Positions 7,501-21,703 of a DNA stretch of 21,703 nt are shown one piece after another. The translations under genes were made by a program, and so were the position numbers. Every line of letters starts with the position of its first letter. Positions within the stretch are counted from its first letter, which is position 1. The stretch spans positions 1-21,703 of IMG/VR virus record IMGVR_UViG_3300020166_000133; one strand, given 5' to 3'. The stretch comes from a virus. Under the pieces are notes generated by a model. The model was not told the origin of the DNA. It did not search any database and saw only the letters and a program-made list of their open reading frames with translations.

Positions 7501-10449
7501 ATGATGAACACCAAAGAATTTTTAAGTACGGTGTTGGGGGATCAGGGGTACTATTGCGCGTTAGGACTAAGACCGAAAGATAAGAGAAGAAAACAAAAGT
7601 TCTACGGTTCTATAGACGCGCTAGCTGATTCTTCGCTAAACCTTGATGCTGAAGGGTACGATTCTTACTTTGCCCTTGCCTCATTTTTAGACGACAAAAG
7701 TCGCACCGCTGACAATGTAGATTCGATAAAGAGCTTTTTCCTAGACCTCGATTGCGGGGCGGGTAAACCTTATGAGCAACAAACAGATGCGCTTAAGGGA
7801 CTACAAAGTTTTTGTAGAACTACACAGATGCCTAGACCTACTGTTGTAGTTAACTCTGGGCGCGGCATCCACGTTTATTGGGCGTTAGACAAACCGTGCC
7901 CTAAAGATAAGTGGTTACCCATAGCCGAAAGACTAAAGTTAGTCTGTGCAGAACATAACTTAGATGCAGATTCCGCAGTAACTTCTGACGCAGCACGCGT
8001 GCTACGAGTACCAAACACGCACAACTACAAAGGGAATCCCCCCATACCGGTAAAAGTTATCGGTGAGTTAGGGGGTGTCTTAACCCTAGAAGAGTTTGAA
8101 GCGGTCTTACCACAAACAAACTTGATACCAGTGATCTCTAAGAGAGCCTACAGTGCTGAAGACTTAGAGGATTCTAAAAGTCTAGCAGGAACCACATACA
8201 CTAAAAGCTTTACTGACATAGTTAAGAAAACTTTAACTGGTAAAGGGTGCGGACAAATACACAAGGCTATAACGCAGCCTAACGATCTCACCTACGGTGA
8301 GTGGCTAAGTGTGCTATCTATCGCAAAGCATTGCGAAGAAGACCGAGCGATCCACATGATTTCGCAGGGGCATGATGAGTATGATGAGCAAGAGACCGAA
8401 AAGATTGCTGCGTCTATCAACAGCCCTCACTTATGCGCTACGTTTGCTGAACATAACCCCGACGCATGTAAAGATTGCGCGCATAAGGGAAAAATTAAAA
8501 CGCCTATAACGTTGGGTATGGGGCCAAAAGAAGCGTCAGCCGCTGACAATGTTATAGATATACCTATAGACGAACCGGAAGAAGCAGAAGAACAAGCTCC
8601 GCTACATGTGGTTGCTCCAGACTCGGAGCTTTTTGATGCTACCAAAGGCTTTCCCGGTGCACCTGTTGAACCAAAACTTGTAGCTGCGCCGCGCACTAAG
8701 AAGTACACCATACCCCAGTACCCCGACAAATATTCAAGGCAAGAGGGTGGCGGGATAATTAAATTGATTCAAGACTCTGAAGGTAACGTAGATAAAAAGT
8801 TAGTGTACAAACGTGACTTATACTTAACCAAAAGAATCGACGACCCCATCGAGGGGCCGAAGTATGAGTTTAAACACCACACCGCTAGAGAAGGCATACG
8901 CACGTTTTTAATTGCCGGAGTGAAGTTAAGTTCTAGGGAAGAATTTCGTAAAGCTATGGGTATGAACGATATCCACCTACTAAAACCGGAGCCTCTTATG
9001 GAATACGTTGCCGCTTGGATTGAGAAGCTATATACAGACACCGACCCAATAAAGGCCAATATGCAGTTTGGTTGGACCGAAGATATGAAATCTTTTGTGG
9101 TAGGTGGTAGGGAAATATTTAAAGACAAGATTACGGACAACCCAGCATCTTCAGCTACGGCAATGTACTTTCCTATATTTAAACAGAAGGGTACGTTGGA
9201 CGGGTGGAAAGAAGTTGCTAAGTTTTACAACATGCCGGGTAATGAACAGCATCAGTTTATGATGGCTACAAGCTTCGGTTCGCCACTTCTGTCGTTTCTA
9301 CCTAACGTAAGCGGTATGATTAACCATCTGTTTAGTTCTGCAACAGGTATTGGTAAGTCTATGGGCATGATAGGCGGGGCATCTATATGGGGTAACTACG
9401 CATCTTACATATTGCCGGGCGCTTCTACACCAAACTCTATCTGGCAGCGTGCTGAAGTATGGAAGAACCTACCACTATACGTTGACGAGATAACAAACCT
9501 ACCCCCCAAAGATGCTAGTGACGCTGCGTATGCGGTATCTAGTGGGCAACAAAAGTCTCGTATGGATAGTTCGGGGCAGAACAAAGAACGCTTTAGGGGC
9601 GAGCCTTGGAAATTAATAACTGGAACTAACGGTAATACTGGGCTAGTAGAGAAGATGTCTTCCTACAAAGCGCAGCCCAAAGGCGAACAACAGCGAATTA
9701 TAGAAACAAGAGCCAAACAAGTTTTCTTTACTTCTGAAGACACAGAAATTACAAACAAGATTAACAAAGCAGTAGCTAAGAATTACGGCTACGCCGGAGA
9801 TGTCTTTATACAGCATGTGTTGTCAGACATGGAACATGCGGAAGCGTTGTGTGAAAAGTACCGTGCTTTAATAATTCAAAAAGCAGGGCTAACTGACCAG
9901 AATAGGCTGTGGTCTGGCGGCGCAGGGGTAAGTATTGCGGGCACTGCGCTAGCTATAGAGGCGGGGCTAGTGGACTGGGACCTAGACAAACTAATAAAAT
10001 GGATAGTAGAGAGGTTAAAAGTGTTGAAGGTAAGCGAACGAGAGCTAAACTTAGACGTACAGCAGCTAATAAATGATTACTACGCACACTACCAAGGCGC
10101 GATTATGCGTCTACGCAGTACTGATGACGCACGAGCAGGTGACGCCTCTGGCGTAGGTGTGCTTGTATACCCCGAGAAGATGCCACACTACGCTTGGGTG
10201 GGGCGGTACGAGACAGACATAAACAAGTTGTACTTACTAATCAAACCGTTCAAGCAGTGGTGCATAGATCAGCAGTATAACTATGGGGAAGTTTACGAGG
10301 CATTGCAGCAGACATTTGGGGCAGTGAAAGATCGCATAAGGCTAGGCAAAGGCACGACTATAAACATGCCTCCTACGTATGTAATCGCTATGAAGTTTGA
10401 AGAGCCTGAGATTGTAGATGCGGTAGTTGAAGGGGCGGTCTTTAAATGA
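7501..10449 (+). CDS. Primase-helicase: AEP-type primase fused to DUF927-type helicase
   Basis: This 982-residue protein should make primers and unwind DNA at the phage fork. The N-terminal part is an archaeo-eukaryotic-type primase: FFLDLDCG with Asp82 and Asp84, SGRGIHVYW (119-127) with His124, and a DAARVLRVPNTHNYKG segment (163-178). A PriCT-like region follows (about 240-330) with a cysteine set, Cys312, Cys323-x2-Cys326-x-His328, probably zinc binding. A linker rich in Glu and Ala leads to a DUF927-like ATPase: Walker A SATGIGKS (613-620), Walker B LYVDEIT (659-665) and sensor LITGTNGN (705-712). The C-terminal 200 residues are unassigned. Two ATG codons are adjacent (7501 and 7504); the ribosome binding site is weak (GAG, 7493-7495), unlike the neighbours. 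It overlaps the next gene by ATGA. Confidence 0.9.
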   Translation: MMNTKEFLSTVLGDQGYYCALGLRPKDKRRKQKFYGSIDALADSSLNLDAEGYDSYFALASFLDDKSRTADNVDSIKSFFLDLDCGAGKPYEQQTDALKGLQSFCRTTQMPRPTVVVNSGRGIHVYWALDKPCPKDKWLPIAERLKLVCAEHNLDADSAVTSDAARVLRVPNTHNYKGNPPIPVKVIGELGGVLTLEEFEAVLPQTNLIPVISKRAYSAEDLEDSKSLAGTTYTKSFTDIVKKTLTGKGCGQIHKAITQPNDLTYGEWLSVLSIAKHCEEDRAIHMISQGHDEYDEQETEKIAASINSPHLCATFAEHNPDACKDCAHKGKIKTPITLGMGPKEASAADNVIDIPIDEPEEAEEQAPLHVVAPDSELFDATKGFPGAPVEPKLVAAPRTKKYTIPQYPDKYSRQEGGGIIKLIQDSEGNVDKKLVYKRDLYLTKRIDDPIEGPKYEFKHHTAREGIRTFLIAGVKLSSREEFRKAMGMNDIHLLKPEPLMEYVAAWIEKLYTDTDPIKANMQFGWTEDMKSFVVGGREIFKDKITDNPASSATAMYFPIFKQKGTLDGWKEVAKFYNMPGNEQHQFMMATSFGSPLLSFLPNVSGMINHLFSSATGIGKSMGMIGGASIWGNYASYILPGASTPNSIWQRAEVWKNLPLYVDEITNLPPKDASDAAYAVSSGQQKSRMDSSGQNKERFRGEPWKLITGTNGNTGLVEKMSSYKAQPKGEQQRIIETRAKQVFFTSEDTEITNKINKAVAKNYGYAGDVFIQHVLSDMEHAEALCEKYRALIIQKAGLTDQNRLWSGGAGVSIAGTALAIEAGLVDWDLDKLIKWIVERLKVLKVSERELNLDVQQLINDYYAHYQGAIMRLRSTDDARAGDASGVGVLVYPEKMPHYAWVGRYETDINKLYLLIKPFKQWCIDQQYNYGEVYEALQQTFGAVKDRIRLGKGTTINMPPTYVIAMKFEEPEIVDAVVEGAVFK

Positions 10450-11355: not shown

Positions 11356-11378
11356 CCCCCCGAAAGGGGGGTATTTTT
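11356..11378 (+). terminator. Strong intrinsic terminator of the plus-strand operon
   Basis: Six C (11356-11361), a GAAA tetraloop, six G (11366-11371) and then TATTTTT (11372-11378) form a textbook Rho-independent terminator read on the plus strand. It lies 38 bases after the last plus-strand gene. On the minus strand the same stem is followed by CTAAG with no T-run, so it is not an obvious terminator for the opposing operon. The stop codon of the 2020-residue minus-strand gene (11377-11379) overlaps its T-run. Confidence 0.9.
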
Positions 11379-14300
11379 ACATCCACTCATCCCCAAACTC
11401 AGCGTTAGACCTTAGCACTTCGGCTTGCCTACGTTTGTTTACCGTAATACCCCCTAACATTCCAGTCTGGATACTTGTTCTGCCGTGTTGCGCTATGGAA
11501 CGCTTGATAGTTTCTGGAGTAATAGCGACCGTCGGGTGACGTTGATTAAACTCATTAAGTTCGTCTACCGCATCTCGCAGGCCGTCGGTGTCCCCATCAC
11601 GCAAAGATTTGTAGTACTTACGTAGGATCTTGGTGCGCGCTTCAGCTATGTTTCTGTCAACACGTTTGTTGAGTGCATTTATCTCTAGTTGTTTAGTGTA
11701 GTTAGCAGGAGCAAAACCTAATGCCTGTGCAAACAAAGACATTGGCCGCATAGTACCTTTTAGGATTTCATCCCCGCGCATACTAACTGCGCCTTTGGTA
11801 GCGTAGCGGTACGACTTCATGGAGTTAGATAAGAACGCAGGTAGTAAACGTTCTGCGCCTCGTTGGGCGGCCTCCCCACCTTCAGCAATCGAACCTAACC
11901 CATTCAACCAACGCATCCCAATACCTACTACGGGACCGCCAAACATTTCTAAGTAGTGCTCAACCATACTGTCTGGTTCGTAGTTTGCACGGTTTCGTAC
12001 TATAAGGTTTGTTTGAGATATGCGGTCGGCCACACTAACGTTTAAGTAGTTGTTAAATATGCCAGACATAGCCCCCTCACCTATAGCCTTTGATACTATA
12101 GTGTCGAAGTCTTCTTCGTCGTCGTCTAAAAGGAAGGTATTAGCCGTCATAGCCACGAGGCCGTACAACGGTACGCCAGCCACACCTGCGAAAGCACCAG
12201 CAGAAGCGTACTGAAGAATAAGTTGTTTACGTAATACTAAAGCTTCTGCGGCTTGCCTATCAAACTCAGCTTGGTCTATCTCCCCCGCAGCTAAAGCACG
12301 TTGGCGCTTCATAGTCATGTCGGCTAGCAGCGACTTAAACATCTTAAATTGCATAGCAAGAATCGCAGAGGGGTAACGCTTGTACATAAACACAAGACTA
12401 CCCATATCGTTTTGGGAGAACCTAGGAGCGGACGTTAGGAGCGCCGCACTGTTTATTTCTTCCGTACTATCAATGGCAGTTTGTGCGGCTTGCGTTCCAA
12501 ACTCTGCAATCTCTGTTTCCGAAAGCTCATCGAACTTTTTGTTAGTTAGCTTTTCCATCTCTGCTTTGTATACTGCCATTGCAAAGATCTGGCGGTTAGC
12601 TCGCTCTGCGTGGTTAAACAAAAACCCTGAAGCTGCTTGGAACTTATTAAGTAAGCGGTTAGACGGGTTCTCTAAGTCAAACATATCCGAGGCTAGCGTG
12701 CGGCTGTCTAACCCGTACTTAATAAACAAGTCGGCCAAAGGGCCATAACTAGGAAATTTAGCAGTATCGTTAGTCAAGGATAGCCCTGACCGTACAGTAA
12801 CCTGCTCATTAACTTCATTACCGTTTGCGTCTACCGTAGGGAATATTTCGCTTTCACGACTAAACCCAGTGCTCATGTACTCTCTCATCGCGCTCAGTAT
12901 CATGCGCGTAGCTTTCAGAGGCCCGTACCGTGCAGCCAAATAAGGCATGCCTACTATAGGGATGTTAGTAAGGTTGACGACAATACTGGATATATTAAAT
13001 CCTAGAGTGCCGAAGAACGCGAGAGACTTAAGTGTTCTAGCTGTCTCTCCTATGTATGGGTTTTTAGCGAACTCTAAGTAGCTAGCTAACCTACCATTGC
13101 GCCGGTCTACTCCCGAAGTTGTACCTACGGTAGCACGTAAAACATCTTGCACTAACGCGTCGTCTGGATGTTCTGCGGCTTGTGCTTTTATTTCAGTCGC
13201 TACTTCCGTTAAAGGTATGTCGAACTCAACGTTAGTCAGGTTAGTTATTAGCACAGGCATCTTCTTCTCGAACACCCCTATAGCGTCTTCTTCAAAACCT
13301 AACGTGCCTTTACGATGTTTGTAGCCTTGTAGTAGGGCTTGTTCTGGCAACACATCAAAGAGTATGTCCTGCAACTGTTGGGCTGCTTCAGGGTTATCTT
13401 TGAGGGCGGGCAAGATTTCGTTGTATATTTTCGACACCGAAGAGGTGGGTATGCCTTTAATTCTTTCCCGTACCTCTATACGAGATTTCTTTTCTACGTT
13501 TTTAGCCCCGTTCTTTTGTAGCTGAGCTATAGCTTTATTGCGCTGACCTCTACTATCGAAAGGAGCCGCGTAGTACTGCCCTTCAAATGTGTACTCAAGC
13601 CAGAAATTACCATCACGATACAATGGAAAGTAGGGGCGAATCTTGTTCTTGCCGATAATGTCCCGCACAATTTTATTACGTACGGTTGCACGTACGGCCT
13701 TATCCCCTATCAACGCTTCGAGTCTAAGATCTAAAGCGGCTAAAGTTTTGTTATCTATAAAGGCGTATGCGTCTCGTATATCTTTGTAGACTTGTAACTG
13801 CGCAGGTTTCTGTCTTAGTCTGGCTACAGAAGGTTGCATTGCTCTCCATAGTTCACGCTGTTCTTTACTATAAACAGGATTGCCGTCGCTATCTTTTAAA
13901 TCTATAGGGTCTAAGGGGTCAACTCCTCCCTCGTTTTCTATCCCTAGCGTAGAATTAAATACTAGTCTATCAAGTACGTCTCTGCCTTCTCTGTCGCCTT
14001 TAAAGGCTTCGAGGGCTTTTTTAACGCTTAGTTTATGCGCGTCCAACAACTTATTTCTAGCGCCTGCCTGCTCTCGTAGCGTGTTAAGCAGTTTACCTAC
14101 CGCAGGTACTTTTTGACTAACCAAGTCTGCAATGTTGTTTAGAGATATAGAGTTAAGAAAGAAGGCGCGCTGTTTGTCTGTATACCCTTCGTAAGCCCCA
14201 CGTATATAACTCGTACTTGTTTCAGTTATACCACTACTACTAAGCCCTTTACCTCCACCAATTAGCAAAGAAGTAAGCTGCGCGTCTTTCCCATCTTCTA

Positions 14301-17300
14301 GCATAGAGTACATAACCCCAGCGTCTCTGTATTCTGGAGCGGGGGACAGTATGGCGCTTATGTATTCTCCTACTTTCTGCTGTGCGTTAGGGGTCTTTAG
14401 AGCTTTTATCCCGAAGAAGTCAGCGAAAGCATCTACGATACGCTGCCACAAGTTCTTTTTAGTTCCCGCCTCGGTGTACGACGCAAGCTCGTTAGCAAAG
14501 TTAGGGTTGCCAGTATACTCAGATACAAACTCATCTAAAGACGTTGACCCATAACTAGACGACAGTCCTGCCTTTGATGCTTCGTATATAGCAGTTAGCT
14601 TGATCGTTAGCGGGTGGGCTGGGTTAGCCAGTACATGAGAGGTTGTAGCGTGTGTCGCTTCGTGTATTAGTGTATGGACGGCAATAGGTACAGAAGAGTT
14701 TATCTGGATCGTATCGGTTTGCGGATTGTACAGCCCCGCCAGTGCTTCACCTTCTGGAGTAGCTAAGTTTTCTACCAGTTCTATCTTAGTGTTGCCGATA
14801 TTGTTCCGTAGCTCTCTAGCTGTTTTGCGCACCTTTGGATTAACTGATTGGCCGAGTATGTCTAAAGCTGCGCCTATGTTGCCTTGAGAAAGCTGCTCAA
14901 AGATAGCGGGAGATATAGGCATACTAGACGAGGCCACTGCATCTAAACGCAAGGCTTGAGTAATTTTGTTACCCGGTTGTGCTAGGAACGCTGCTACATC
15001 CGCATCAACTTGAACTTGCCTTTGCGCGGCATCAGTATTAGTGGCAAGGGCATCGGCTCCTCCTAGATCCTCTTCCGTTTTCTTTACTACTTCTTGTACT
15101 GCTTCTACCGCTACGTTGGGATCAGATTTAAAAGCATCTCCAACTAACTCAGCAGCTTGTTCGGCTTGTTCTGCTTCCAATCTATCTTTTGCAGCTTTTT
15201 TTGCTTCATTAACTTCTGAGCGGGTTAAACCTGCTTTGGCTTCTTTAGTTTGCTCGACCCACTGCTCACCGTACTGCTCTTTTAATTTGGCGATAGTCTC
15301 TGAATTTTTAGCTCTTGCAGCTATACCCTCTTTTATTTCAGCTATCTGAGCATCTAACAATGCCGAAGCCGCAGGTAGAGAACGGACATATCTCGCTGCG
15401 TTGTTGACCCGAGTAGTTTCTGCCTTACTGGCTTTAGGGTCTAGCGTAGCTAAGTCGTATGCGAGCATACGTACAGAGACTTTAGGGGAGAACACATCAT
15501 TTAAGTAGTAAAGTATTGCGTTAGCAGGAGCAACTGCATTAGCAGCAGGTTTCTCTTTAAGCCCTTTAAGAACACCGTCTCGTAAACGTTTAGCAAGAGC
15601 GGTATCGGCGTTAGGATTTAGTTTTGCAGACGCAACTTCTAGTTGGTTAGTTATGTTTTGCGATAGGTTTTCTACCCCTTCAAGGGTATCAAGAGCTTTC
15701 TTAGCTTCACCTTCAAACTCTTCTTTACCACCAAATTCTTGTTGAAGGGCTTCTTTTGCTTCTGGAGCATTAAGCTCAGCTTCTACTTCTTTTGCTGTAG
15801 GGGCAGCGGCAGCTAATGCAGCGCCTGCGGTACGGTTTTTGGCGGCGTCTTCTTCAGCACGCACGCGAGCCGCTTCGGTTGCTATCGCTATGTCGTCGGC
15901 GGTAAATTGTACTTGTTCAAATCCGGTAACTTTGACCTGTTCGTTTGGTTCTACACCTTCTTCGGCTTGTTCGCTCTGTAAGTTAGTAAATTCTTCAGCA
16001 CGTTTAGCTGTTTCGGCAGCGTTTCGCGCATCTATGTCCTCTTCCCACGTTTCTGGAACTTCTTCTAGCTCAGCCGCTGCGTCTATCTCCGCTTGGGCGG
16101 CTTCTTCTGCTTCGCGGTCCTTGTCAAACTTCGCCACTAAAGCGGCTTCTTCTTCTGGGGTTAGCTCTTGTTCTTGCGGAGCATCTACTTCGGTAAGATC
16201 GTCTTCTGTAACTGGGGCTTCGGCTCTTTGTTTTTCCTGTTGTGCTTCAAATGCTGAAACCGCCTCTTCACCTTCTACAGTTGTACGTCCAGTTTCTTCA
16301 CCGGCAGGGTTTTTACGTACGACAGTTAGCGTGCCGTCTAGGTTTTTCTGCGAGGTGACCGTACTACCGTTTGCTTCGGTAACTACTATAGGCGCTGCGA
16401 CAACTGTACCGGCAGCTTCAGCTTGTGCTTCGGCTTCTTCGTTTTCTTGGTTTGCCAATTCAGCACGAGCAGAGCTAGGGGCAAAAGCGTTAGCACCAGC
16501 ACCAAGAGACCCGCCAACAGTTGCGGCCATGTAAGCAGCTTCACCGTACTCTTCAAGTGCTTCGTCAGAAAGTAAATCTAGGCCCGCTTGGTCACGTTCT
16601 ATAACAGACTGGGCTACTTCTACAGGAACTTCTGAGGCTGCACCACGAACTGCACCTCTACCCATACTGTTTGCTATTGAGCGTTTAGATACGTTGAGTA
16701 GTGAGCTTGCCGCCTGTCCAGTAAGTGGTGCGTCTTCGGCTATATTGAGAATGTTTTTTATTAAACGTTTGCCTAACACAAACCCAGTACCGGCTGTTTC
16801 GGTAAGGCTCTGTAGTGCTGCACCTCTAGCCGCTTTTGCAACGTCAATATCAAGTTCTTCGCCGCGTTCTTGTTGGGCTTCGGCTTGTCGTTGTACGTTA
16901 GACCCAAGGAATTGCGAACCCACAGCGGTAGCGCCGCCTAACAAAGCTCCAAGGGGCTTAGCAAAAGGTCCGACTACAGGCAGCACTGGAGGGGTAACTG
17001 CTGCACCTAAACGAGCACCGGCTAATGCGGTACCTATAACACCAACTTGTCCTGCTAATGCACGGGGAACTTGCCCTACACCTGATGCCGCCGCAGAGAG
17101 TACGCCCTCTTCTTCAGCTATATCTTTTATGCGTTGAAAAGACGGGGCTTCGCCGTAGCTTTCGCCAATAGCTTTACCGCGTTCTATACCCTCAAGTGCT
17201 GCCTCTTCTGCATCTCCGAAAAGAGAACTGATACCCGTACGACTAGCAGAACCTAACTGTCTAACACCACGAACAAGTTCTTCGCCAATAGTACTTTGCT

Positions 17301-17439
17301 CGCCTTCGGGTATACGAGGGCCTGTGGGGGCATAGTGAGCGGCAAACAACTCTTCCATGTCACTAGGCGTAGGGGGGACTGCCCCCTGTACCTTTAGTTC
17401 TTTCCCAGTCTCAGCATCGCGTATAGTATATTCAGGCAT
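11377..17439 (-). CDS. Giant virion protein with zincin-like HEATH motif and PLxRFG-like region
   Basis: This 2020-residue protein is probably an internal or ejected virion protein. Regions in order: a short N-terminal domain starting MPEYTIRDAETGKEL; a Gly/Ala-rich hydrophobic stretch (about 115-180); a long Ala/Glu/Gln-rich coiled-coil region (about 325-830); and a metallopeptidase-like motif IHEATH (925-930), with Glu970 or Glu974 in DEFVSEY as a possible third zinc ligand. After these come PYFPLYRDG (1269-1277), close to the PLxRFG signature of very large phage proteins, and an LPD38-like C-terminal region with hydrophobic segments near 1470-1500 and 1738-1769. Membrane-active segments fit a role in moving DNA into the host; that is inference. 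AAAGGA lies just before the ATG, 9 bases after the upstream stop. No lysozyme or RNA polymerase motif was seen. Confidence 0.9.
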   Translation of the reverse strand: MPEYTIRDAETGKELKVQGAVPPTPSDMEELFAAHYAPTGPRIPEGEQSTIGEELVRGVRQLGSASRTGISSLFGDAEEAALEGIERGKAIGESYGEAPSFQRIKDIAEEEGVLSAAASGVGQVPRALAGQVGVIGTALAGARLGAAVTPPVLPVVGPFAKPLGALLGGATAVGSQFLGSNVQRQAEAQQERGEELDIDVAKAARGAALQSLTETAGTGFVLGKRLIKNILNIAEDAPLTGQAASSLLNVSKRSIANSMGRGAVRGAASEVPVEVAQSVIERDQAGLDLLSDEALEEYGEAAYMAATVGGSLGAGANAFAPSSARAELANQENEEAEAQAEAAGTVVAAPIVVTEANGSTVTSQKNLDGTLTVVRKNPAGEETGRTTVEGEEAVSAFEAQQEKQRAEAPVTEDDLTEVDAPQEQELTPEEEAALVAKFDKDREAEEAAQAEIDAAAELEEVPETWEEDIDARNAAETAKRAEEFTNLQSEQAEEGVEPNEQVKVTGFEQVQFTADDIAIATEAARVRAEEDAAKNRTAGAALAAAAPTAKEVEAELNAPEAKEALQQEFGGKEEFEGEAKKALDTLEGVENLSQNITNQLEVASAKLNPNADTALAKRLRDGVLKGLKEKPAANAVAPANAILYYLNDVFSPKVSVRMLAYDLATLDPKASKAETTRVNNAARYVRSLPAASALLDAQIAEIKEGIAARAKNSETIAKLKEQYGEQWVEQTKEAKAGLTRSEVNEAKKAAKDRLEAEQAEQAAELVGDAFKSDPNVAVEAVQEVVKKTEEDLGGADALATNTDAAQRQVQVDADVAAFLAQPGNKITQALRLDAVASSSMPISPAIFEQLSQGNIGAALDILGQSVNPKVRKTARELRNNIGNTKIELVENLATPEGEALAGLYNPQTDTIQINSSVPIAVHTLIHEATHATTSHVLANPAHPLTIKLTAIYEASKAGLSSSYGSTSLDEFVSEYTGNPNFANELASYTEAGTKKNLWQRIVDAFADFFGIKALKTPNAQQKVGEYISAILSPAPEYRDAGVMYSMLEDGKDAQLTSLLIGGGKGLSSSGITETSTSYIRGAYEGYTDKQRAFFLNSISLNNIADLVSQKVPAVGKLLNTLREQAGARNKLLDAHKLSVKKALEAFKGDREGRDVLDRLVFNSTLGIENEGGVDPLDPIDLKDSDGNPVYSKEQRELWRAMQPSVARLRQKPAQLQVYKDIRDAYAFIDNKTLAALDLRLEALIGDKAVRATVRNKIVRDIIGKNKIRPYFPLYRDGNFWLEYTFEGQYYAAPFDSRGQRNKAIAQLQKNGAKNVEKKSRIEVRERIKGIPTSSVSKIYNEILPALKDNPEAAQQLQDILFDVLPEQALLQGYKHRKGTLGFEEDAIGVFEKKMPVLITNLTNVEFDIPLTEVATEIKAQAAEHPDDALVQDVLRATVGTTSGVDRRNGRLASYLEFAKNPYIGETARTLKSLAFFGTLGFNISSIVVNLTNIPIVGMPYLAARYGPLKATRMILSAMREYMSTGFSRESEIFPTVDANGNEVNEQVTVRSGLSLTNDTAKFPSYGPLADLFIKYGLDSRTLASDMFDLENPSNRLLNKFQAASGFLFNHAERANRQIFAMAVYKAEMEKLTNKKFDELSETEIAEFGTQAAQTAIDSTEEINSAALLTSAPRFSQNDMGSLVFMYKRYPSAILAMQFKMFKSLLADMTMKRQRALAAGEIDQAEFDRQAAEALVLRKQLILQYASAGAFAGVAGVPLYGLVAMTANTFLLDDDEEDFDTIVSKAIGEGAMSGIFNNYLNVSVADRISQTNLIVRNRANYEPDSMVEHYLEMFGGPVVGIGMRWLNGLGSIAEGGEAAQRGAERLLPAFLSNSMKSYRYATKGAVSMRGDEILKGTMRPMSLFAQALGFAPANYTKQLEINALNKRVDRNIAEARTKILRKYYKSLRDGDTDGLRDAVDELNEFNQRHPTVAITPETIKRSIAQHGRTSIQTGMLGGITVNKRRQAEVLRSNAEFGDEWM

Positions 17440-17448
17440 GGTGTTCCT

Positions 17449-19695
17449 TTAGCTCCCCACTACGGTAAACCTATCAGTCGCAGGTGTGGTGGGCGTTGAG
17501 GCGGTAGAAACTCCCGATTGCCCCATACGGCGCGCCAACTCCCTTGCAATGTACTGATCTTCAAGACGCCTTACGGCATCTGCGTACATTTGCGCGTCGA
17601 AACGTTCTTTTCCGTCAAAGTAGCCGGAGCCTGTTGTGGCTTCTAACCTTAACTTATCTTTTTCCGCTTGGAGTAAGGCATCAAAAGCCATACCGGTGTA
17701 AATGTCGTTGATTACGTCGGCTGTAAGTTTAGCGTTTGCAGTGTTTCCCTGCGCTTCTATGCGTTGTTTTAACTCTTCTGAGCGTGCATTTATATCCATC
17801 TGCCTTAAGTCTTTCTCGTTAGCAAACCTAGAGCGGTCGCGGGCTTTTTCTCTGTCGAATAAGCGCTCTTCGGCTTCAAGTTTTCTGCCTTCTTCTGCAA
17901 TCTTAGCAAACTCAAAGCCTTTAGAAGCACCCGCGCCTCTTCCCAAGATACTACCTACATCCCGCAACAGCCCCGATATTCCCCCTTCTTTCTTAGTTGG
18001 GGTAGTAGCGGCGGTAGTGCTGGCGGGAGGTGCCGCGTTTCTTTTCTCTTCGGCGGTTTGCATAGCAGCACGTAACGCTGTAGCCAAAGCTTGATCGTCT
18101 ATGCCTTCCATACTATTCAGACTGCGGTCCGAAGGCGTACTTGTAGGAGTGGTAGGAGTGGTAGGAGTGGTAGCTGCTTCTACTATATCTCCCCCACTTG
18201 CGGATGCCGTTTCAATAGCGGAGGCCGTTTCTTTGCCTTTCGCTTGGTCTTGCTCTACTTCGGTTCCCGTGTAGCCTTCTTGTATGTCGCTAATAAAATC
18301 TGAGTTTATAACCCCGTCAATTAACCTGCCCGGACCAGTAACGATGTCGTTAGCATAAGCACCAAGATATCTTCCTAATGAGGGGTCATCGCTATTTTCT
18401 GCAACGTTTGTTGCTCTGGGTAGTATTGCGCTAGCATAACCGCTTAAATCTAGGCTGCCTAAACCAGACTCATCTACAAAGTCTGCGATATTTCCGGGGA
18501 CTGCACTAAGATCTTCTTTGGCTTGGTCGTATATAGTCCGGCCCATCGTGGACTTTCTTGGGTCGCGTTCTGCTACAAAATCTTTTACCCCGCCCAGTAT
18601 GTTGGCTATGCCCATACCGCTATCGGGGCTAGTCATAACGTCTTGCATACTCGCGCTGTTCTCGGCGTTTATGCTACGCTGCGCTGCGTTTAGCTCGTCT
18701 GTAAGTGACGGGCCTATGTCTCGTTCGTTGCGAGCCTGCATAGTTTTACGATTAAAGTCTCTAGCAGCGTCACTAGTAGCCCCTGCATTTTCTGGCATTG
18801 ACGGCATTCTGTCTCGCAGTACATCCATAGCACCACGGCCTACTCCACGTAGGGTATCGTTTTGCCCACGCGCAACTTGGCTGTCTAGCATCTGGCTTAT
18901 AGCGGATAGCTGCCCTTCAGTAAAGTCTGCGATGTCACGGCCTATAGAAGACAAGTAAGCCCTGATCTCTCCTCCACTTGCGTAGCCTCTAACGTCTCCA
19001 CCCATAGCTAACTTAGCTGTACCCATATCAGAAACGATACGTTTAACTCGGGGCGACGTTAACTGTATTAAGTCTTTAATCTTTTGCTCAAACAGTTGTT
19101 TTTCTTGCGGGAACGCATTATCTAAATCTTCCTGCGCTTTTTTCATGTCCTGTATAAATTTAATTACTTCTGGGTCTTGTTGCGGTTTACTAGTAGCCGC
19201 CGGTCGCTGCGCTTGGGCCTCGGTGTTTGACATGCCCTGTGGTACGCCTTGCATACCGCCGCTTGCATACCCAATAATCCCACCTTGAGCACGTCCGATA
19301 GACTGCATGTTTTGGGCAGGATTAGCGGAGATACCTTGTGCCATTTGCGGTTGCGGTTGCGGTTGCGGTTGCGGTTGCGGTTGCGGTTGCGGTTGCTGCG
19401 CACTTCGCTGTCCCTGTTGCATAACCCCCGGAGATACCCTTGCTATTGGCGATTGAGGCATGGCTTGACTCTGCAACTGTCTTTCAAATTGCTGTACCAG
19501 ATTACCCCCCGGAACGGGTGGTTGGGGGTTCATATCTTGTTGCCGTCCCCCCGCTTGACCCGTACTAGCCATTTGCTGCAAGGCAATAGCCTTAAACAAA
19601 TCTGGATATTGCTGTTGGCTTTGCATTAGTTTCTGTGAGCCAAGGCTTTTTAAATTTTCTATTTCGCCGCTAATAGGGCCATTACTTTGGTACAT
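17449..19695 (-). CDS. Gln/Pro-rich virion-type protein with GG..GY..GG motifs
   Basis: This 748-residue protein is mostly low in complexity. The first 130 residues are rich in Gln, with a Pro-Gln repeat at 101-117 encoded by a DNA hexanucleotide repeat. Two related glycine motifs follow: GGIIGYASGG (138-147) and GGDVRGYASGG (232-242), separated by a helical, charged segment. Later come TTPTTPT repeats from a 9-base tandem repeat, and an Arg/Glu-rich helical region likely to form a coiled coil (about 590-680). I recognise no enzyme domain. Such Gly-Tyr motifs occur in tail-length or internal virion proteins of phages, so a structural role is inferred from this and from its neighbours. AGGAGA before the ATG is a strong ribosome binding site; there are 25 bases to the upstream gene. 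Confidence 0.85.
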   Translation of the reverse strand: MYQSNGPISGEIENLKSLGSQKLMQSQQQYPDLFKAIALQQMASTGQAGGRQQDMNPQPPVPGGNLVQQFERQLQSQAMPQSPIARVSPGVMQQGQRSAQQPQPQPQPQPQPQPQPQMAQGISANPAQNMQSIGRAQGGIIGYASGGMQGVPQGMSNTEAQAQRPAATSKPQQDPEVIKFIQDMKKAQEDLDNAFPQEKQLFEQKIKDLIQLTSPRVKRIVSDMGTAKLAMGGDVRGYASGGEIRAYLSSIGRDIADFTEGQLSAISQMLDSQVARGQNDTLRGVGRGAMDVLRDRMPSMPENAGATSDAARDFNRKTMQARNERDIGPSLTDELNAAQRSINAENSASMQDVMTSPDSGMGIANILGGVKDFVAERDPRKSTMGRTIYDQAKEDLSAVPGNIADFVDESGLGSLDLSGYASAILPRATNVAENSDDPSLGRYLGAYANDIVTGPGRLIDGVINSDFISDIQEGYTGTEVEQDQAKGKETASAIETASASGGDIVEAATTPTTPTTPTSTPSDRSLNSMEGIDDQALATALRAAMQTAEEKRNAAPPASTTAATTPTKKEGGISGLLRDVGSILGRGAGASKGFEFAKIAEEGRKLEAEERLFDREKARDRSRFANEKDLRQMDINARSEELKQRIEAQGNTANAKLTADVINDIYTGMAFDALLQAEKDKLRLEATTGSGYFDGKERFDAQMYADAVRRLEDQYIARELARRMGQSGVSTASTPTTPATDRFTVVGS
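18143..18169 (-). repeat. Three 9-base tandem repeats (Thr-Pro-Thr coding)
   Basis: Three exact copies of GTAGGAGTG lie in frame inside the 748-residue gene and read as Pro-Thr-Thr on the minus strand. This makes the TTPTTPT linker before the coiled-coil part of the protein. Because the unit is 9 bases, changes in copy number would keep the frame. Confidence 0.85.
19345..19396 (-). repeat. Hexanucleotide tandem repeat coding for Pro-Gln
   Basis: Eight exact copies of TTGCGG (19345-19392) plus a partial copy read on the minus strand as alternating Gln and Pro codons. They encode residues 101-117 of the 748-residue protein. The unit length keeps the reading frame, so slippage would change the length of the linker without breaking the gene. 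Confidence 0.95.
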
Positions 19696-19720: not shown

Positions 19721-20542
19721 TTATCCGGGGAAGTATTCTTTATACTTATCGTAAATTGAAGTTAGTGCATCAAAGTACCCCAACCCCTGAGAAAAACTGC
19801 TTGGCTCTACGTAAGTCATGTCTTGTGCTTCTATAGGTAAGCCCTGCAATAGAGATTGTTGATACTGGACCATTTTATAGGGGTTATCCCGTTCTTCTTT
19901 AAACTGCGCGTAATCAGCGGCAATGCCTTGCTGCTCTATGCCACGCTGAATTGCTCCGGCGTCTTGCATAGCGTTTAACGACTCTAAGCCATATTTGTTT
20001 GTATATTCTTGAGCCTGCCTAGCGCGGTCTTGCTCGGTATTAAACTGGTCCATACCTTGGGTGTAGGCTGTCTGCATGCCTGTGCCGTATATATCTGCGA
20101 GGTTTCGCGTCAGGTTTCGCTGCCCTTCGGACTCCATAATAGCTTGACGTGACCCACCAAACGCACCTGCTTTGCCTAGCCTACCTGCATTTTGCACCCG
20201 CAGTATTTCTGCTTGGCGCTGCGCTTCGGCCATTTGCGGTTCTAGTGCGGCATTTATATAGGGACTCATAAAGTCCTGAGCCGTTGTGCCAGAAGTAAAG
20301 CTAGTCGGCGTAAACGCCCCCATCTGCGCAGTCGGTACAGAAAGACCCGCCAAACCTTGAAAAGCTTTAGTTTGTAAATCAGATTGCCCCGCAGTTAAAG
20401 GTCCGCTGTAGGATTGGTAGGGTTGGTCTGCAAGAGCTGCTCCCTTGCCTAACATATTTGTTACATACCCCGATGCCCAAGGCGCAAGGGATTCTGTGGT
20501 GCTAGCTGGTTTGCCTACTGGATCGCCGGTTGCTGAACTCAT
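19721..20542 (-). CDS. Ala/Gln-rich helical virion-type protein
   Basis: This 273-residue protein has a disordered N-terminus (about 1-90, rich in Ser, Thr, Gly, Pro and Ala). A long helical region follows (about 92-215), opening with DFMSPYINAALEPQMAEAQR and carrying the motif GKAGAFGGSRQAIMESEGQR (123-142). The C-terminus (216-273) ends in aromatic-rich IYDKYKEYFPG. From memory the FMSPY...GAFGGSRQA arrangement is common among structural proteins of marine podoviruses and siphoviruses, but I know no assigned function; an internal virion or tail-fibre-linked role is inferred. The ribosome binding site TGAGGA contains the stop of the gene upstream, which places the two genes 10 bases apart and suggests coupled translation. 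Confidence 0.83.
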   Translation of the reverse strand: MSSATGDPVGKPASTTESLAPWASGYVTNMLGKGAALADQPYQSYSGPLTAGQSDLQTKAFQGLAGLSVPTAQMGAFTPTSFTSGTTAQDFMSPYINAALEPQMAEAQRQAEILRVQNAGRLGKAGAFGGSRQAIMESEGQRNLTRNLADIYGTGMQTAYTQGMDQFNTEQDRARQAQEYTNKYGLESLNAMQDAGAIQRGIEQQGIAADYAQFKEERDNPYKMVQYQQSLLQGLPIEAQDMTYVEPSSFSQGLGYFDALTSIYDKYKEYFPG

Positions 20543-20552
20543 AATTATTTCC

Positions 20553-21428
20553 TCACGCTAGATACTTGTTGGGGTCTATTTGACGCCCTTGTTCGGGGTT
20601 ACCTGTACGGTCTGTACGTACTCGGTCCATCATGCTGTATAGGTTTTGCGCGCCTGCTTCGGAATTACCGTTGCCTAAGTGACTTACTACGTCAGCAGGA
20701 ACTACAAACTCCCCATCGCTCAGTGCAGCAGGTTGGTTGTTATCTATCGTGGCAGGAATTTGGTCTGCCATACCGTCTGTTGGACCGCCTAAGTAGTAGC
20801 CGTTTACGTTGCCGCCTTGAGCCATACCTTGCACTTCACCAGTGCCATAAGGTTGTGTTTTTGTACCGTCTATATATTCTTGCAACAACGTATACAGATC
20901 GGCAACACCTCCGGGCTTAGTCTCACCATACGCTGTGTAGTACGGCCCCATCATTTTTTGTATGTCAGATAAAGGCACGTCCATTAAATCTGAAGCTCGA
21001 TACGGGTTTATATTGTACTGGTTCATTGCCCCAATACCTTGGTCGATTTGCTTGCGTTCTGTAGTTAGATTACCGGAGTCATCTAAGACCATTGCAAGGT
21101 TTTCCTTAACCCCTGCGTCAGTAAGTGTCTGAGCCGCAGGCCGCTGTTGCTTAGCCGGATTAGCGACATTTGCAAGACCAAATCTGTTAGCTTCTTCTCT
21201 AGCAAGAAGGTTTTGAGCGTCTACCCTAGCACCAAAAGCAGTATCATAGCGCCTATCGTAGGCGTCTTGCGTTTCAGTGTCAGCTCTATCCCCTAAATTG
21301 GGAGGGCTGACATAGCGTATATCACTAAAATAACGCTGCCCACTACTGCCCGGCCTACGATTTTCGTCGTAAGTATTCGGCACAGCCGCACGGGTTGCTT
21401 TAAAATTTGGAATTACGGTTTGTACCAT
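20553..21428 (-). CDS. Virion-type protein with C-terminal LSDGEFVVPADVVSHLGNGN module
   Basis: This 291-residue protein begins with a charged, Tyr/Arg-rich segment (1-90). Its middle is helical, and at 205-215 it has GGNVNGYYLGG, related to the motifs in the 748-residue protein. A conserved-looking module then runs from about 216 to 290: GGPTDGMADQIPATIDNNQ, LSDGEFVVPADVVSHLGNGN (236-255), then an Asn-Leu-Tyr-Ser-Met-Met-Asp-Arg-Val-Arg helix. From memory this module recurs in structural proteins of HMO-2011-like and pelagic phages, with no known biochemical role. The ribosome binding site TGAGGTT includes the upstream stop codon, again pointing to coupled translation. A structural role is inferred from operon context. 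Confidence 0.85.
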   Translation of the reverse strand: MVQTVIPNFKATRAAVPNTYDENRRPGSSGQRYFSDIRYVSPPNLGDRADTETQDAYDRRYDTAFGARVDAQNLLAREEANRFGLANVANPAKQQRPAAQTLTDAGVKENLAMVLDDSGNLTTERKQIDQGIGAMNQYNINPYRASDLMDVPLSDIQKMMGPYYTAYGETKPGGVADLYTLLQEYIDGTKTQPYGTGEVQGMAQGGNVNGYYLGGPTDGMADQIPATIDNNQPAALSDGEFVVPADVVSHLGNGNSEAGAQNLYSMMDRVRTDRTGNPEQGRQIDPNKYLA

Positions 21429-21435
21429 ATTAACC

Positions 21436-21703
21436 TCACGTATTCTCTAAGTACCGAATAAGTTCTTCGATATCATTGCCCTGCACTATACCATCTACTG
21501 CACCGCCTGCGTATAGGGCGGCAACATCATCTTGTTTTTCGTCTGTTACTTCAGGGGCAAATATACTGTCCCCAAACGCATCAAAATAGTAATCAATTTC
21601 TACGTCTTCACCCGATTCGACCGTTATAAACCCCGGCAAAGCTGGGTATTGGACGTTAGTTGTGCCTGTGCCTGTTCCCGTACCTGTGCCTGTGCCTGTG
21701 CCT
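21436..21703 (-). CDS. C-terminal part of an acidic protein with Gly-Thr repeat (partial)
   Basis: The frame is open at the right edge, so the start is outside the window. The visible 88 residues begin with seven Gly-Thr pairs, then TNVQYPALPGFITVESGEDVE, an acidic middle (many Asp and Glu), and an ending DDIEELIRYLENT-like helix. A TTG at 21637-21639 could be called as a start, but the frame continues through the repeat to the edge without a stop, so it is better read as an internal codon. The repeat is probably a flexible linker. The acidic C-terminus resembles small phage structural or chaperone-like proteins, but I do not recognise a family. The next gene starts 7 bases downstream. Confidence 0.75.
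   Translation of the reverse strand, partial: GTGTGTGTGTGTGTTNVQYPALPGFITVESGEDVEIDYYFDAFGDSIFAPEVTDEKQDDVAALYAGGAVDGIVQGNDIEELIRYLENT
21663..21703 (-). repeat. CCTGTG-type hexanucleotide repeat at the right edge (Gly-Thr coding)
   Basis: Near-exact copies of a CCTGTG hexamer run to the window edge, broken by one diverged copy (TTCCCG, around 21676). On the minus strand they read as alternating Gly and Thr codons. The repeat continues beyond the window, so its full length is unknown. Confidence 0.85.

Follow-up and report, generated by a model that had tools for sequence, protein, structure and literature searches.

Zincin-type metallopeptidases were described in the giant proteins of phages in 2017, where they occur in about 36% of the polyvalent proteins (PMC5512222). 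Iyer et al. also cover a clade with the variant motif HExxxH, and propose that the zincins process the polypeptide (PMC5512222). The DdrB protein of phage P1 is processed prior to packaging, and the virion RNA polymerase of phage N4 is packaged uncut although an MPTase is present (PMC5512222). In the solved ejectosome of phage PhiM1 (8vb2), Asp268-Asp528 of gp48 has been published as an 'endolysin/exotransglycosidase-like domain', and the main text of that paper makes no mention of a metallopeptidase or protease (PMC11440229).

The DNA analysed here, referred to as the window, is the 21.7-kb virus record IMGVR_UViG_3300020166_000133 (21,703 nucleotides), probably a fragment of a genome. Its end (21640-21703) falls within a Gly-Thr repeat of an upstream gene, which suggests that an assembly break at this repeat explains where the contig stops. 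No DNA-level match to isolate phages was found. The plus strand carries a replication set, composed of a family A DNA polymerase, an SNF2 helicase, a PD-(D/E)XK nuclease, a single-stranded DNA-binding protein and a DUF927 primase. These genes point towards a minus-strand block, the final gene of which is the 2020-residue open reading frame noted in a preliminary description of this DNA and recovered here on the minus strand (17439..11377). The features of the block are listed in Table 1. The phage is a tailed one that has not been cultured, and its giant product is most likely a polyvalent protein for ejection, with a zincin-like metallopeptidase at its centre, which would be packaged and injected.

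Table 1. Features of the giant gene and its surroundings, in window coordinates.
Feature	Position	Strand	Basis
Giant polyvalent protein (large multidomain, probably ejected), 2020 aa	11377..17439	-	ORF and syntenic orthologues
N-terminal module (aa 1-345), a short beta-hairpin followed by long helices	16405..17439	-	model and conservation
Zincin-like metallopeptidase domain, aa ~845-1015	14395..14907	-	conservation, predicted fold, fold matches
His922, one turn ahead of HExxH; conserved in 11/12 close relatives	14674..14676	-	
HEATH, aa 926-930: His926 and His930 as predicted zinc ligands, Glu927 as predicted general base	14650..14664	-	
Glu970, probable third zinc ligand, invariant	14530..14532	-	
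C-terminal PLxRFG domain, aa 1269-2002	11434..13635	-	NCBIfam NF032893
PYFPLYRDG, PLxRFG-like motif, aa 1269-1277	13609..13635	-	
Gln/Pro-rich protein, 748 aa, directly upstream of giant, same operon	17449..19695	-	
273-aa protein, weak phrog_4287 'DNA ejection protein' match; neighbour kept in most relatives	19721..20542	-	
291-aa protein, conserved C-terminal SDGEFVVPADVV motif; conserved neighbour	20553..21428	-	
DUF927 primase/helicase gene, convergent; other side of giant gene in many relatives	7501..10449	+	

The gene order is largely constant among the relatives: a phrog_3287 virion structural protein, the SDGEFVVPADVV protein, the phrog_4287-like DNA ejection gene, the Gln-rich protein, the giant and the convergent primase. 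The giant gene holds a late-gene position beside structural and ejection genes, as expected of an ejected virion protein. The Gln-rich neighbour (17449-19695) contains a (PQ)n tract and is poorly conserved in sequence, yet its position beside the giant gene is fixed. The C-terminal motif DGEFVVPADVVSHLGNG of the 20553-21428 product is found across nearly all relatives, with ~49-88% identity regionally, in proteins that differ greatly in length. Portal families of the P22 and T7 types were not found in eight relative contigs, the T7 search being one without a positive control.

In its architecture, the giant is a polyvalent protein in the sense of Iyer et al. 2017, with a helical N-terminal module, a central peptidase and a C-terminal PLxRFG (candidate LPD38) domain. 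The N-terminal module is kept in 30 non-redundant giants at 31-49% identity; its modelled hairpin and long helices matched no known fold. The region upstream of the zincin, earlier called coiled-coil, is Ala/Glu-rich and of low complexity. The PLxRFG-like motif of the preliminary description proved to be part of a true family match, as NF032893 ('PLxRFG domain-containing protein') covers residues 1269-2002 with 248.4 bits against a cut-off of 100. Pfam LPD38 did not match the window's giant directly and was matched in its syntenic relatives. The connection between the two runs stepwise through a chain of significant C-terminal profile matches that leads to the LPD38-containing sets: set P, to which the window's PLxRFG domain belongs, is joined to set Q (99.9%), Q to R (100%), and R, S and T to one another (R-S, R-T and S-T, 100%), set P having no direct match to the LPD38-containing sets. 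One syntenic relative (L040:3357-12020) has an ADP-ribosyltransferase domain (ART-PolyVal, aa 1640-1758) in addition to the zincin and LPD38.

The IHEATH stretch at residues 925-930, on which the proposal of a peptidase was first built, is the sole HExxH in the 2020-residue protein, and DEFVSEY (aa 969-975) places Glu970 and Glu974 where they had been reported. Five letters can arise by chance in 2020 residues, and the HEATH of a coiled-coil-rich protein could be such a case. However, the expectation for HExxH from the composition of the giant is only 0.008; 0.7% of its shuffles hold any HExxH, and 0.005% hold one followed by [DE]EF 30-60 residues on. These values rule out a chance motif, a reading that conservation had already refuted and that, with the fold and the homologues also against it, retains a negligible probability. 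His926, Glu927, His930 and Glu970 are completely conserved among the homologues, on which the preliminary description had staked its proposal: they show no substitution in any of 12 non-redundant family members, six distant phage proteins and three solved ejection proteins. That description left the third ligand between Glu970 and Glu974. The first candidate stood, whereas Glu974, invariant in the close family only, is ruled out as a general third ligand by the other residues found at its position in distant homologues. Since the equivalent of Glu970 is kept in the distant and solved homologues and that of Glu974 is not, Glu970 is the likely third zinc ligand, judging from the alignments. Iyer et al. 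recognise 12 MPTase clades (PMC5512222). The window's domain exceeds no Pfam cut-off, the best score being that of DUF6782 'putative metallopeptidase' (12.4 bits vs. 27).

An AlphaFold2 model of the domain, built on 15 sequences, has a mean pLDDT of 74.9, with ~85-94 across most of the core. The order of its elements is a helix (73-85 in model numbering), three strands (90-94, 104-110 and 115-119), the HExxH helix (aa 921-937), a further helix and the Glu helix (aa 968-977), which is the order of the zincin-like MPTase core of Iyer et al. (PMC5512222). Judged on this order, the predicted structure is zincin-like, and the helix of HExxH is distinct from that of the Glu, as in zincins. A Foldseek search of the PDB placed zinc metallopeptidases on top, represented by eight lethal factor chains, at modest scores (best E 0.03, probability 0.92, TM-score 0.34), with PPEP and ArdC further down the list. 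The likeness to the catalytic domain of lethal factor concerns the fold class only, and no kinship with the toxin is implied. Against viral models, 20 matches had E<=1e-3, among them large polyvalent proteins, with which the preliminary description had wanted the domain compared, a virion RNA polymerase, a T7-like internal core protein and crAss-like proteins. Residues ~845-1015 are a real zincin-like metallopeptidase domain; the first proposal of a peptidase is thus borne out by conserved residues and by the predicted fold.

Homologues of the domain are also present in isolate phages. By tblastn, crAss-like phages and T7-like Pseudomonas and Achromobacter phages were reached; the matches are individually weak (E 1e-4 to about 10), and those examined align on the motif. 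Among the crAss-like matches are phi14:2 gp76, which MS/MS has proven to be structural and present in virions, and Carjivirus gp45, whose annotation reads 'RNAP associated protein fused to zincin protease'. A homologue of this region is likewise present in Serratia phage Parlo, which was reached through the C-terminal domain. Its gp81 (L010:6761-18064) bears a second HExxH, HEAFH (aa 2560), besides this zincin, and Skulduggery has the equivalent of that second motif only. The seven-sequence alignment (A1), at ~21-24% identity, proved so divergent that it could not serve as the basis of a pattern scan; apart from one glycine, only the columns of His926, Glu927, His930 and Glu970 are invariant in it. 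A single-sequence search of the PDB with the domain gave no matches, whereas profile searches with the domain sequences matched three solved internal or ejection proteins: 9sfn (E 1.3e-13), 8vb2 (3.5e-12) and 23sg (1.5e-9). Each has the HExxH and the equivalent of Glu970, without a Glu at the position of 974. On chain A of 8vb2 the match covers gp48 residues 377-514, with HExxH and Glu conserved.

An alternative role for the domain lies in attacking the cell wall, the function that the PhiM1 authors put forward for the corresponding part of gp48. In PhiM1 the homologous domain is inserted in the hub of a tetrameric ejection protein, the T7 protein has a lytic transglycosylase, and several homologues from P. 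putida phages carry the annotation 'internal virion protein with endolysin domain'. The invariant set is, however, HExxH...E and no glycosidase site, the fold matches are metallopeptidases, and PhiM1 has a separate lysozyme-like domain on another ejection protein, so that a cell-wall role is improbable here. About equally doubtful is a fold kept for structure only, in packaging or oligomer assembly, and catalytically silent. In N4, encapsidation depends on a region that takes in the MPTase, although the protein stays unprocessed (PMC5512222), but the restriction of the invariant columns to four catalytic residues and one glycine at such low identity argues for retained chemistry.

A direct search of viral contigs with the zincin domain alone found nothing, whereas the N-terminal module (aa 1-330) led to 46 loci, chosen regardless of the peptidase. 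The module had no match among 50,697 isolate phage records, and a pattern scan of GTDB genome contigs found no relatives of it. Proteins over 1500 residues were taken as giants; clustered at 90% identity, and counting that of the window, they gave 30 groups. HExxH or HExxxH is present in every one of the 30, with an expectation for HExxH of 0.001-0.03 each. In the neighbouring open reading frames of the same loci (99,249 residues), only two such motifs occur, both in truncated copies of the giant gene. Four zincin sequence types, all in the same gene position, are found among the giants: type A, that of the window (HExxHA...DEFxxE), type B (HE[LM]GH...EWFA), type C (HExxHA[LV]K...EEA) and type D (HExxGH (HExxxH)...E). 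The 12 non-redundant members of type A show no variation at the four catalytic residues. The HExxxH form (HELIGHY and variants) was seen in L048, L050, L052-L058 and L060, members of the same orthologous gene family.

The nearest relative of the window by the N-terminal module (L020, 49%) carries type B. The tree of this module requires at least five type changes, against a possible minimum of three. Two changes each for types C and D are imposed by well-supported branches, and the main group of type C lies inside type D. Comparison of the four types by hhalign gave only weak similarity, the best being A-C with 79% probability over 43 columns. As the C-terminal domains are linked, the gene order is largely constant and the N-terminal tree requires these changes, the peptidase is exchanged within one orthologous gene. 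The number of exchanges is modest and uncertain, because a tree that keeps type A as one group is not rejected (p-AU 0.077) and L061 sits on a long branch.

Exchange of this kind would also fit an arms race over host targets. The zincin would then be an effector that cleaves host proteins after injection, such as defence, transcription or envelope factors, an option offered by Iyer et al. (PMC5512222). Besides the replacement of zincins by other types, the ADP-ribosyltransferase domain of L040, typical of host-directed effectors, speaks for this role. A motif kept in every complete giant is, however, less expected of a dispensable effector, and the role is possible but rather unlikely. The presence of the motif in all 30 giants, with neighbouring reading frames having none of their own, argues for an obligatory step over an optional effector, and suggests that cutting is indispensable. 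Processing of the injected protein or its partners is favoured over attack on host proteins, because the peptidase is constantly present beside constant flanking domains.

For such processing, the following course may be proposed. His926, His930 and Glu970 would hold the zinc, with Glu927 as the general base. The giant would share the capsid with the ejection proteins encoded next to it, and would be injected before the DNA or together with it. Carriage in the capsid and delivery into the host, already suggested in the preliminary description, are supported through homology and synteny, by the MS/MS-proven phi14:2 protein, the T7-like ejectosome proteins and the adjoining DNA-ejection gene. 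During or after delivery, the zincin would cut its own chain or a neighbouring ejection protein, so that the helical module at the N-terminus would come apart from the PLxRFG/LPD38 domain at the C-terminus; the chances that its substrate and timing are these can be put at about even. Self-cleavage before packaging is not general, since the N4 virion RNA polymerase is uncut and the gp48 chain of PhiM1 was modelled with the homologous domain in place (PMC11440229).

More tentatively, it may be that in this phage lineage, found in metagenomes only, a zinc peptidase is a compulsory part of the orthologous giant ejection protein, and that its type (three kinds of HExxH, or HExxxH) can be exchanged, whereas the N-terminal module, C-terminal domain and gene order are fixed. 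Cutting would then be obligatory for DNA delivery, and the same step would have gone unrecognised in the solved T7-like ejectosomes. A limited search of open-access full text found neither the constant presence with type exchange nor the link to these ejectosomes. A peptidase always present yet exchangeable argues that cutting belongs to delivery, and since culturable T7-like phages have homologous ejection proteins, some of them solved, the role can be tested by a single catalytic mutation in a laboratory phage. A re-examination of the PhiM1 domain, read as 'endolysin-like', would also seem warranted.

The window's protein belongs to an already described kind, from an uncultured lineage. With the polyvalent-protein MPTases of Iyer et al. 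2017 (PMC5512222), it has in common the HExxH helix and later Glu helix, the three-stranded sheet with an N-terminal helix, the central place in a giant phage protein and the late-gene neighbourhood. Parlo gp81 and other PLxRFG/'DarB-like' phage proteins have a C-terminal domain homologous to that of the window; in the Parlo protein (~3770 aa), the zincin homologue lies upstream of this domain, but the window's N-terminal module is lacking. The crAss-like proteins, Carjivirus gp45 and phi14:2 gp76, share the domain and catalytic residues but do not match the PLxRFG domain, and the record annotation of gp45 ties it to RNA polymerase. By profile, the window's domain is also found in T7-like internal virion proteins, namely the tetrameric ejection protein gp48 of PhiM1 (8vb2), 9sfn, 23sg and those of Villemi, a P. 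putida KT2440 phage in which the protein has 1525 residues, and Axy21. Such proteins are ejected and keep the HExxH and Glu, in an overall architecture unlike that of the window's giant.
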